Both the position numbers and the translations under genes were made by a program. A stretch of DNA of 64,000 bases from contig NZ_CP018099.1 in assembly GCF_001886815.1 (NCBI RefSeq), positions 4,338,501 to 4,402,500 of the forward strand, in the 5' to 3' direction. Shown in pieces: positions 12,055 to 15,302 of this stretch; position 1 is the stretch's first letter, and every line of letters begins with the position of its first letter. The notes beneath the pieces are model-generated. The model made no database searches and was not told the DNA's origin. It worked only from the letters and a program-made list of their open reading frames with translations. This DNA is from Caldithrix abyssi DSM 13497 (GTDB lineage Bacteria; Calditrichota; Calditrichia; Calditrichales; Calditrichaceae).

Positions 12055-12228
12055 GGGGCTGTCCCAAAAGTCGAAGAAAATGTATTTTTATAAATTTCTT
12101 CTTTCCCTCACCCCCTTTAATTCCCCCTCTCCCGATTTTCGGGAGAGGGGGCAGGGGGTGAGGGCTAATGTAAGGTTTTTCATGATTTTAAATAAATATA
12201 CATTTAATTTCGCTTTTGAGACACCCCC
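12055..12228 (+). repeat. Repeat family A, full copy 1 (palindromic, MITE-like)
   Basis: 174 bases with imperfect terminal inverted repeats: GGGGCTGTCCCAAAAG at 12055-12070 and CTTTTGAGACACCCCC at 12213-12228 (14 of 16 match after reversal). The inverted similarity continues inward through an ATGTATTTTTATAAA-like stretch, and the centre is a long hairpin around CCCTCTCCCGATTTTCGGGAGAGGG. A second full copy is at 38557-38737 and half copies at 19251-19312 and 43441-43503. The small ORFs here are by-products of the repeat. The rest of the 11825-12493 gap shows no gene. Confidence 0.7.
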
Positions 12229-12282
12229 AGACCTTAATTCTGGGAGTGGGGGGCAGGGGGTGAGGGCTACCACATAGTTGAA

Positions 12283-12310
12283 TAGATAATTGGTTGAATG
12301 GTTTAATAGG
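12283..12310 (+). repeat. TTGAATGGTT-type short repeat cluster (copy 2)
   Basis: AGTTGAATAGATAATTGG followed by TTGAATGGTTTAATAGG, the same unit as at 11876. It lies just after repeat A copy 1. From 12311 to 12493 I see only small imperfect inverted repeats and no gene. Confidence 0.5.
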
Positions 12311-12493
12311 CCTCCCGCCCTGCCACTCATCACCCGACTCGTCAGGTGATTGCCAGCTCATGGAAGGCCTGAAAATTTCACAAAAGTCCTTCATTTTAAT
12401 ATTATGAAAAAGCCTTCTCAGGCGTTAATATTTCAGAAATTTTAAAAAGCCGAGATCCGTAAGGCTAACTCTTTCTCTCAAACCTTTAGCCGC

Positions 12494-13735
12494 TCATCCC
12501 CGTGAATGAATTTGCGTGGTCAACTGCGCAAAGTCTTTTCCGCTTGGATTCTGGAAGATGCGTAGTTCAAATTCCGGAACCACGGCCAGCAGGTGATCAA
12601 AAATATCCGCCTGGATGGACTCATAAACTTCCCAGCGGATATCGTTGGTAAAAGCGTAAATCTCGATAGGAAGCCCCTGCGGTCCGGGTGGCAACTGACG
12701 GACCATTTTGGTCAATCTTTGATTAATTTTGGGATGACTTTTAATGTAGGCCGCGGCGTATGCACGAAAAGTACCAATGTTGGTCATGCGGCGCCCATTA
12801 ACCATCACGCTGTCATCAATATTGTGTTCGCGATTGTAGCGTTCCAGCTCTTCAAGTTTATTTTTCACATAATCATGAATTAACTGAATTTTCAGGAAAC
12901 GATCGATCATTTCCTGATCGCAAAATTTAATGGAATTTTGATCGATGTAAATCGACCGTTTAATGCGTCTGCCGCCGGCCTCTTCCATGCCGCGCCAGTT
13001 TCGAAAAGAGTTCTCTAAAATTTTATGCGTGGGAACAATGGTAATCGATTTATCCCAGTTTTGCACCTTGATGGTGTGCAGAGCAATATCGATTACGTCG
13101 CCGTCCGCGCCAAATTGCGGCATTTCAATCCAATCGCCCACATGCAGCAGATCGTACATGTTGATCTGAATGCCGGCCACAAACGAAAGAATGGTATCGC
13201 GAAAGATGAGCAAAATAATGGCCGTCATAGCGCCCAAACCGCTCAGCAGCATCCATGGCGGCTGGCGGGTTAAAATGCCAATCATAATAATGAAGGCCAC
13301 AATGTAAACGACAATCACCACAATCTGCAGGTAGCTCTTAATCGGCCTTCTACGCGCGCGCGGTTTTAATTCGTAATAGCTGTTGCCGGCCATTAATAAG
13401 GTGGAAACCGTTCTGGCCGATAAAAAGGTGAGTAATAGATTTACGATGACATCCACCGTGTTGCCAATAAGCGGCAAAAGAAAAAGGAAGTTTTTGATAA
13501 TGAGCAGGGGAATAAAAAACGCCAGTACTTCAATGACTTTGTGTTCAATAAAAATGTCGTCCAGCCGCGTTTTGGTGCGCGCGGCAAATTTTCGGGCTAT
13601 TTTATTGCCCATGCGCTTTGCAGCCAGATATACAAGAAACGAACCCAGTAAAATAAGCGCCAGAATAAAAAACTCTTTAAGCAATGGCAGGTCGGTAAAA
13701 AAATCTCTGATGTTTTGAAAAAAAACGGTGTTCAT
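12494..13735 (-). CDS. MscS-family mechanosensitive channel (YbdG-like)
   Basis: A 413-residue inner-membrane protein. Residues about 15-185 give four or five membrane helices (LKEFFILALILLGSFLVYLA, VLAFFIPLLIIKNFLFLLPL, YLQIVVIVVYIVAFIIMIGI). The pore-lining helix and beta domain signature follow: LSGLGAMTAIILLIFRDTILSFVAGIQI and HVGDWIEMPQFGADGDVIDIALHTIKVQNWDKSITIVPTHKILENSFRNW. The C-terminal part (about 270-400) has the extra region found in YbdG-type members. These channels open under membrane tension and release solutes during hypo-osmotic shock. The ATG overlaps the stop of the S51 peptidase gene (ATGA-type), so the two are co-transcribed. Confidence 0.88.
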   Translation of the reverse strand: MNTVFFQNIRDFFTDLPLLKEFFILALILLGSFLVYLAAKRMGNKIARKFAARTKTRLDDIFIEHKVIEVLAFFIPLLIIKNFLFLLPLIGNTVDVIVNLLLTFLSARTVSTLLMAGNSYYELKPRARRRPIKSYLQIVVIVVYIVAFIIMIGILTRQPPWMLLSGLGAMTAIILLIFRDTILSFVAGIQINMYDLLHVGDWIEMPQFGADGDVIDIALHTIKVQNWDKSITIVPTHKILENSFRNWRGMEEAGGRRIKRSIYIDQNSIKFCDQEMIDRFLKIQLIHDYVKNKLEELERYNREHNIDDSVMVNGRRMTNIGTFRAYAAAYIKSHPKINQRLTKMVRQLPPGPQGLPIEIYAFTNDIRWEVYESIQADIFDHLLAVVPEFELRIFQNPSGKDFAQLTTQIHSRG

Positions 13736-14442
13736 GCTTTTTCTGCCTCGTTTTCGAATTTAAAGTTCTTCGGTAATAAAAGCTGACTTTTAAGCCGCTC
13801 GTTTTCCTGCTCAAAGAGCCAGGCCGGCTTGTTAAGAGCTTCGATGGAATGATCAGGATGGTACAAAACGCCTCCGCCAAAAGGAATGCCAATCCCGTGA
13901 ACATACGGATTCTTTAATAAACTTAAGGTCTGCTTCAACCTCGACCAGTTTTCCGCTTGTTGATGCACGTCAATCACAAAGGGGATGCATTTTAACATGG
14001 GCTGCAATTGATCGTCCTGATCGGAGAAGGCCAGCCCCAGATGAATGGCTCCGGCCGAAACGCCAATTAAATAGGCCCCTGCGTAGTAACGCTCCACAAT
14101 AATCGCGGCCATACCAGTTTGCTCCAGAATTTTCCAGCCAAAAAGAACGTCGCCGCCGGCCAGCAAAATGATATCGGCCTGACTCAAAAAATCCCGTTCT
14201 GTTTCGTTAAATTCTTTTTTGATGTGCCGGCACTCCACGGAAGAAAATCCGCGCATGGCCGCAGTAAAAATCTGAAAAAATTCTGGCCGATCATCGTTTG
14301 CTGCCCCGATGTAGGCCGCCCGGCCGCCGCTTATCTGTGCCAGGTAGTTTTTTAAAAAAGATTGGCCGCCATACTGCTCGAAAAGAAGCTGACTGTCTGC
14401 TAAAAGTAAGGCCGCTTTTTGTTTCAATGCTACGCTCCGCAA
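13732..14442 (-). CDS. S51-family peptidase / class I glutamine amidotransferase-like protein
   Basis: A protein of about 230 residues of the dipeptidase E / cyanophycinase fold. It shows AAYIGAANDDRPEFF (strand-turn), ADIILLAGGDVLFGW, and the nucleophile elbow LIGVSAGAIHLG with the catalytic Ser; HGIGIPFGGGVLYHPDH fits the later fold region. Members hydrolyse Asp- or cyanophycin-derived peptides; the substrate here is unknown. The start is uncertain: the longest frame begins with TTG 14442, but GCGGAG at 14434-14439 better serves a TTG at 14427. It overlaps mscS by four bases. Location is probably cytoplasmic, no signal peptide. Confidence 0.75.
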   Translation of the reverse strand: MRSVALKQKAALLLADSQLLFEQYGGQSFLKNYLAQISGGRAAYIGAANDDRPEFFQIFTAAMRGFSSVECRHIKKEFNETERDFLSQADIILLAGGDVLFGWKILEQTGMAAIIVERYYAGAYLIGVSAGAIHLGLAFSDQDDQLQPMLKCIPFVIDVHQQAENWSRLKQTLSLLKNPYVHGIGIPFGGGVLYHPDHSIEALNKPAWLFEQENERLKSQLLLPKNFKFENEAEKA

Positions 14443-14482
14443 TTTCTTAATAAATTATAATAATTTTTAAATGATGCAAGTC

Positions 14483-14755
14483 GGAATATTAAAATTGAAC
14501 TGAATGTCCCCCAAATTTTTTAAGATTACAATATTTTTTCTAAAATTATTTTTACAACTCACCCCCTAATTTCATACTTACTAACACGTTAGGTATGCTC
14601 TTTTCCCCCTCTCTTTGCAAAAAGACTCACAGAGCAAGGCGGGGGAATGAGGTGAGTTTTTCATACATTCAGCTAATGTATTCCCTTAAATATCAATCGA
14701 TTATAAGGTCTTTGTTTGAAATTTTGGGGGACATTCAGGGAATATTAAAATTGAA
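14483..14755. mobile_element. MITE-like element (14500-14738) with 16-bp inverted ends and flush 17-bp direct repeats
   Basis: The ends are perfect inverted repeats: CTGAATGTCCCCCAAA at 14500-14515 and its reverse complement at 14723-14738. Immediately outside lie identical direct repeats GGAATATTAAAATTGAA at 14483-14499 and 14739-14755, flush with both ends, as left by insertion of a transposable element. The 239-bp body has no transposase and contains an inner imperfect palindrome (AACTCACCCC ... AATGAGGTGAGTT). It lies upstream of the peroxiredoxin gene and could contribute promoter or terminator signals. No second copy is in the window. Confidence 0.75.
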
Positions 14756-14792
14756 AACTCTGTTGATACTATTGTAAAGAAAAGGAGACATT

Positions 14793-15302
14793 ATGAAATG
14801 GCTATTCAGCATCGCTTTTATTTTAGCATTAAGTACACTGCTGTTCGGAGGAGATATTTTGAAGACAGGAAGTAAAGCCCCGGATTTTGAACTGCCCGAC
14901 AGCGAAGGAAAAATACATCGTCTTTCCGATTATCGAGGGAAGATGGTAGCGCTCTATTTTTACCCTAAAGATTTTACGCCGGGCTGCACGGCAGAGGCCT
15001 GCAATTTGCGCGATAATTACGATGCCTTGCAGAAAAAAGGCCTGGTGGTTTTAGGCGTAAGTTTCGATAAGCCCGAAAAACATAAGGCGTTCAAAGAAAA
15101 ATACCAGCTTCCTTTTCCACTGCTTTCGGATACCACAAAAAGCGTGGCCGATAAATATGGAGCTAAAGGGACTTTTACCGGTTTTCTGTTTGCCAAACGG
15201 ATCACCTATTTAATCGACGAGCAGGGAAATGTACTGCATGTGTTCGAGAAGGTAAACGCCGGAAACCACGCGCAGCAGATTCTGGACTTTCTGGAAAAAT
15301 AA
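14793..15302 (+). CDS. Peroxiredoxin (Bcp/PrxQ type) with signal peptide
   Basis: A 169-residue AhpC/TSA-fold thiol peroxidase. AAAGGAGA precedes the ATG. Residues 1-20 are a signal peptide (MKWLFSIAFILALSTLLFGG), so the protein is exported, probably to the periplasm. The peroxidatic Cys is in YFYPKDFTPGCTAEACNLRD, and the second Cys five residues later is the PrxQ-type resolving Cys. It reduces H2O2 and organic peroxides using thioredoxin-like partners, useful to an anaerobe meeting oxygen. An exported form is less common than the cytosolic one. The MITE-like element lies directly upstream. Confidence 0.88.
   Translation: MKWLFSIAFILALSTLLFGGDILKTGSKAPDFELPDSEGKIHRLSDYRGKMVALYFYPKDFTPGCTAEACNLRDNYDALQKKGLVVLGVSFDKPEKHKAFKEKYQLPFPLLSDTTKSVADKYGAKGTFTGFLFAKRITYLIDEQGNVLHVFEKVNAGNHAQQILDFLEK

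Follow-up and report, generated by a model that had tools for sequence, protein, structure and literature searches.

In the window, by which we mean the whole stretch of 64,000 nucleotides from Caldithrix abyssi DSM 13497 that was analysed, a short segment is bordered by inverted ends and by a direct repeat, which raises the question of whether it is a mobile element and, if so, how its target site was chosen and what type of transposase has moved it. An earlier note on this DNA had described it as a MITE-like element with perfect 16-bp inverted ends, a flush 17-bp target duplication and a non-coding body of 239 bp, and had suspected a transposase of a less known type. Both the ends and the duplication are present as described (Table 1): the two inverted arms are complementary at 19 of 20 positions, whereby the outermost 16 match perfectly and read CTGAATGTCCCCCAAA, and both copies of GGAATATTAAAATTGAA are flush with the ends of the segment. 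The body is indeed non-coding, since the only open reading frame of at least 60 aa that overlaps it is a 60-aa ATG frame at 14595-14777, and an Rfam search of the 239-bp element returned no match. Its predicted fold is stable (z = -5.6) because of the ends and the internal palindrome.

Table 1. Features of the element and of the adjoining genes, in positions of the window.
Feature	Position	Strand	Remark
MITE-like element	14500..14738	+	239 bp, non-coding
Left terminal inverted repeat CTGAATGTCCCCCAAATTTT	14500..14519	+	promoter-facing end in most copies
Right terminal inverted repeat CTGAATGTCCCCCAAAATTT	14719..14738	-	
Target duplication GGAATATTAAAATTGAA, promoter-side copy	14483..14499	.	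site is single-copy in a same-genus genome
Target duplication GGAATATTAAAATTGAA, distal copy	14739..14755	.	identical to 14483-14499
Internal hairpin core CTCACCCCC...GGTGAG	14558..14656	.	palindromic-repeat variant
Putative -35 TTGCAT	14474..14479	-	3 bp (GTC) beyond duplication edge
Putative -10 region TATAAT/TAATTT	14452..14459	-	14-16 bp spacing, shorter than usual; weak
Peptidase family S51 protein gene	13732..14442	-	read from the targeted promoter
AhpC/TSA (Bcp-type) peroxiredoxin gene	14793..15302	+	other side of the element

The palindromic repeat contained in the core of the MITE (about 45 bp) also stands alone, in dozens of copies, in two genomes of the same genus that are without the MITE (G001 and G002), and it seems that the MITE has picked up a dispersed palindrome. 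Elsewhere in the window, at 12080-12333, GC-rich intergenic palindromic repeats give rise to spurious open reading frames with LTPCP-type translations on both strands.

Copies of the Element and Their Target Duplications

The home genome (G000) is complete and consists of a single contig of 4,978,541 bp. A search of this genome, a step which the earlier note had proposed, yielded about 20 full-length copies that are dispersed over the genome and have their ends conserved, of which 17 are intact and 3 have other elements nested inside, plus several fragments. The intact copies share 82-100% pairwise identity, and the ends of the family can be written as CTGAATGTCCCC...GGGGACATTCAG. Conservation is best in the ends and arms, whereas the middle differs between copies, owing to a palindrome of which several versions occur. 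Four loci (L070, L066, L067, and L077) represent decayed copies. Lone matches to the terminal repeat at 682822 and 1705655, as well as matches in three relatives (L137, L138, and L140), lie in or near genes and were rejected as chance matches. A de novo search that did not depend on the end sequence, but only on a direct repeat of at least 11 bp together with inverted ends, was run over 1.66 Mb of the genome; it recovered this MITE family and merely weak, unrelated candidates without promoters, so that no second element type with the same signature was found in the 1.66 Mb searched.

Alignment of the flanks of each copy revealed target duplications of 13-17 bp in 19 of the 20 copies, the remaining one being a diverged copy without a readable length. 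The lengths are 13 bp (n = 2), 14 bp (n = 11), 15 bp (n = 4), 16 bp (n = 1), and 17 bp (n = 1), and the duplicated stretches are AT-rich (25% G+C). Thus, a 17-bp duplication is correct for the window copy but is not the norm of the family, in which it is the maximum and the mode is 14 bp. The comparison with an empty site, also proposed earlier, was possible in G002, a genome of the same genus: there, the same two genes enclose an orthologous interval that is shorter by 257 bp and contains a single GGAATATTAA in the context AAGCAAGTCGGAATATTAA, with no element. Since this site is empty and holds one copy of the repeat, the window element is a real insertion. Together, the many copies, the conserved ends, the duplications at nearly every copy, and the empty orthologous site support non-autonomous, MITE-like transposition, and a chance origin of the inverted ends and direct repeat at 14483-14755 is excluded.

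Two copies have further repeats beside them. A second, decayed MITE-like end is located 16 bp beyond one copy (L006/L079; 4410629-4410678 in G000), which suggests tandem or repeated insertion at one site. Another copy adjoins a dispersed repeat of some other type, about 300 bp long (L016 1735-2037; 4533904-4534206 in G000), which is present in more than 20 copies of 76-91% identity in the genome.

Position of the Copies Relative to Promoters

When all copies are oriented, the same order appears beyond one edge of the duplication, namely three bases, a -35-like hexamer, 17 bp, and a -10-like hexamer. An offset scan placed the sole peak of the -35 matrix at an offset of 3 and that of the -10 matrix at an offset of 26. 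A predicted sigma70-type promoter with a score of at least 5 lies at an offset of exactly 3 from one duplication edge in 18 of the 20 copies, compared to 0.66% of background positions reaching this score (binomial P ~3e-32), whereby the score derives from an approximate E. coli-type matrix. The distance from the element end to the -35 box amounts to 16-20 bp, with a mode of 17 bp. As a control, the same -35 hexamers were collected elsewhere in 1.6 Mb of the genome: they are followed by a -10 box in 16% of cases overall and in 24% within DNA without long open reading frames, versus 16 of 18 at the MITEs (P ~1e-8). This excess indicates that the target is the whole promoter and not the hexamer alone.

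The insertions are also biased in orientation. It is the left end (the 14500 side) that points toward the better-scoring promoter in 17 of the 20 copies; the opposite orientation is clear for L007 and L063 and weak for one more copy, and L061 shows no clear promoter. At the window copy itself the promoter scores only 3.5, since TTGCAT is well placed but the spacing to the -10 region is poor; the counterpart of this -35 region reads GATGCAAG in G001 and GAAGCAAG in G002. At most copies a long open reading frame lies downstream of the predicted promoter and reads away from the element. These include what we take, from sequence, to be carA- and groES-like genes. The carA promoter (TTGCAT-17-TAAACT) is kept in three genomes of the same genus with no MITE adjoining it, and it therefore predates the insertion. 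Overall, the copies very probably belong to a non-autonomous DNA transposon (a MITE) that is guided to housekeeping promoters when it inserts.

Related Ends in Other Lineages

Among the 146 relatives searched, the full 239-bp element was absent from the other members of the phylum. Three bins had matches to the ends alone: one of Calditrichota (Dive96), one of KSB1, where about 20 sites match a version of 409 bp, and one called GMC4; a search of viral contigs for the MITE ends gave no match. For 9 of 18 ends from KSB1, GMC4, and Dive96, a predicted promoter scoring at least 7 lies within 15-20 bp, in all cases at 17-20 bp, where 2.5% would be expected per scanned interval (P ~1.5e-10), and near-consensus examples such as TTGACT-17-TATAAT and TTGACA-17-TATATT occur among them. 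The promoterless half of these ends consists mostly of one decayed family and of some chance matches. As the positioning at promoters recurs in KSB1, GMC4, and Dive96, target choice belongs to the element family as such rather than to a single genome.

Search for the Transposase

A genome-wide screen of matches to the 16-bp end with up to three mismatches detected no autonomous partner, only copies of the family and chance matches. Searches for the ISKra4, ISLre2, and rve families likewise revealed no transposase linked to the MITE family. Neither an ISLre2 nor an ISKra4 transposase scored above the curated cut-off in the home genome, and no ISLre2 transposase was present in KSB1, GMC4, or Dive96. 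In the added genomes, some of which are metagenome bins, contig ends truncate several copies, which means that an autonomous copy may be missed there. A partner with matching ends is usual for a MITE but can disappear from a genome; such a loss may have occurred in the home genome, or the autonomous element may have diverged ends and lie outside the 1.66 Mb surveyed. The MITE-like nature claimed earlier is thus borne out by copies, ends, duplications, and empty site, while the suspicion of a less known transposase is reasonable but unproven, with no full-length partner obtained by ends or by family searches.

The sole p-MULT matches in the home genome come from an IS256-like element that is present twice in identical form (L167 and L173; 3764186 and 4254688 in G000), with at least one of the two copies interrupting a longer coding region. 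The sole rve-type transposase belongs to a two-ORF element with TGT ends and a 4-bp duplication. This element is presumably IS3-like. Transposases of the DruA-Tn5, IS110, and IS1634 types that lie between MITE ends were considered as autonomous partners and rejected, as they belong to nested insertions. For instance, in L063 (2310796-2313069 in G000) an IS1634-family element is nested in a MITE copy, with 5 bp of MITE sequence (GTTAG) duplicated on its two sides.

Comparison With Known Elements

The behavior of the MITE is most easily compared to that of TnGBS/ISLre2 (p-MULT 3, Mutator-like DDE transposases; PMC3942029, PMC4701971). Guerillot et al. (2014; PMC3942029) showed for TnGBS/ISLre2 elements, and for some of the ISKra4 group, that insertion takes place 15-17 bp upstream of sigmaA -35 boxes, that the asymmetry of the ends sets the orientation, and that the terminal base of the ends is C. 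The distance of 16-20 bp, the orientation bias, and the conserved terminal C of the MITE are alike; 19 of 20 copies have this C at their left end (T in the diverged copy), and most have it at the right end, where six carry T. In contrast, duplications of 8-9 bp are published for all five Mutator-like families (PMC3942029) versus 13-17 bp here, TnGBS/ISLre2 elements carry their transposase whereas the MITE does not, and the published hosts of ISLre2 are mainly Firmicutes. Some members of the ISKra4 group (p-MULT 4) target promoters at the same distance, but the ISKra4 reference elements that we measured differ from the MITE in their ends, GGGTGCGGCTC (GGGTGCGGCTCTTTTAG), and in their 9-bp duplications.

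Long duplications are known from the IS1202 family, where the IS1202 subgroup generates 16-28 bp (PMC10132070). However, the ends of this family are TGT...ACA as opposed to CTG...CAG in the MITE, and no target preference has been reported for the subgroup (PMC10132070). Correia and similar prokaryotic MITEs are also short, non-coding, and located near genes, but Correia elements carry promoters of their own (PMC10969869), whereas here the target is a host promoter outside the element. By analogy, the MITE works like the promoter-targeting Mutator-like elements, and we do not file it as a member of them. Promoter-targeting transposition upstream of the -35 box is already known; what is new is the combination of a long, variable duplication, the MITE form, and the host range.

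Proposed Mechanism and Alternative Explanations

We suggest that a DDE-type transposase would recognize the promoter, most likely in complex with RNA polymerase and sigma. On one strand, it would attach the end of the element at a point 16-20 bp upstream of the -35 box, and it would cut the other strand 3 bp upstream of that box, at a position that does not vary; gap repair would then duplicate the AT-rich stretch between the two cuts. With a constant promoter-proximal cut, the variable length of the duplication would reflect the distal cut only. Recognition might proceed through the RNA polymerase holoenzyme, a route put forward for TnGBS (PMC3942029), or the transposase might read promoter DNA directly; the former is favored because a -10 box is needed at the right spacing. 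The promoter and its immediate upstream region would be left intact, which should make an insertion cheap for the host; since the promoter-side copy of the duplication keeps the native sequence by the core promoter, the target gene is probably not silenced. Here might also lie the reason for the long duplication, in that the target keeps its core promoter together with adjacent upstream DNA.

Promoter-directed transposition has been reported for few bacterial families, and a single complete genome here offers about 20 insertions of natural origin, positioned to the base relative to the -35 box. It is at its promoter-proximal edge that the duplication is anchored, and this limits how the holding of the target complex can be modeled. 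The ends, the duplication, and a promoter at a fixed offset provide a signature by which the transposase can be sought.

Regarding the enzyme that moves the MITE, a Mutator-like (p-MULT) transposase is the leading candidate. It is quite conceivable, if short of probable, that it belongs to a known promoter-targeting family (ISLre2/TnGBS or ISKra4) and makes an unusually long duplication. The similar distance to the -35 box, the orientation bias, the terminal C, and the avoidance of coding DNA speak for such a family, whereas the published duplication lengths, the ends of the ISKra4 references, and a home genome whose only p-MULT matches are IS256-like speak against it. Somewhat more tentatively, we consider a new transposase family that recognizes promoter-bound polymerase, cuts with a 13-17 bp stagger anchored on the promoter-proximal side, and has carried MITEs into Calditrichota, KSB1, and one or more further lineages. 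An IS1202-family transposase of the long-duplication subgroup would account for a similar duplication length, but it is an improbable mobilizer given its TGT...ACA ends, the lack of a target found for the subgroup, and the fact that the one rve-type transposase of the home genome duplicates only 4 bp.

That the copies inserted at random and that the promoter pattern arose from selection against copies inside genes seems extremely improbable to us. Promoters are abundant in intergenic DNA, but selection cannot set an exact 3-bp spacing in 18 of 20 copies, other offsets are not enriched, and the -10 enrichment exceeds that after the same hexamers in non-ORF DNA. It is also very unlikely that the DruA-Tn5-type transposase inside L061 and L062 is the autonomous partner of the promoter-directed MITE. 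Two composites do hold it between MITE ends with outer duplications of 14 and 16 bp; however, the segment lies in opposite orientations in L061 and L062, and it has IS50-like ends of its own (CTGACC.../CTGGACC...) and is bordered, within the loops of palindromes, by separate duplications of 9-10 bp.

This IS50-like element occupies L061 2420-4678 and L062 2838-5096 (871264-873843 and 3132120-3136532 in G000). Its two copies are 99.6% identical and encode a transposase of 752 aa that combines a DruA domain with a Tn5-type transposase, and the location of its duplications in palindrome loops suggests that it prefers palindromes.
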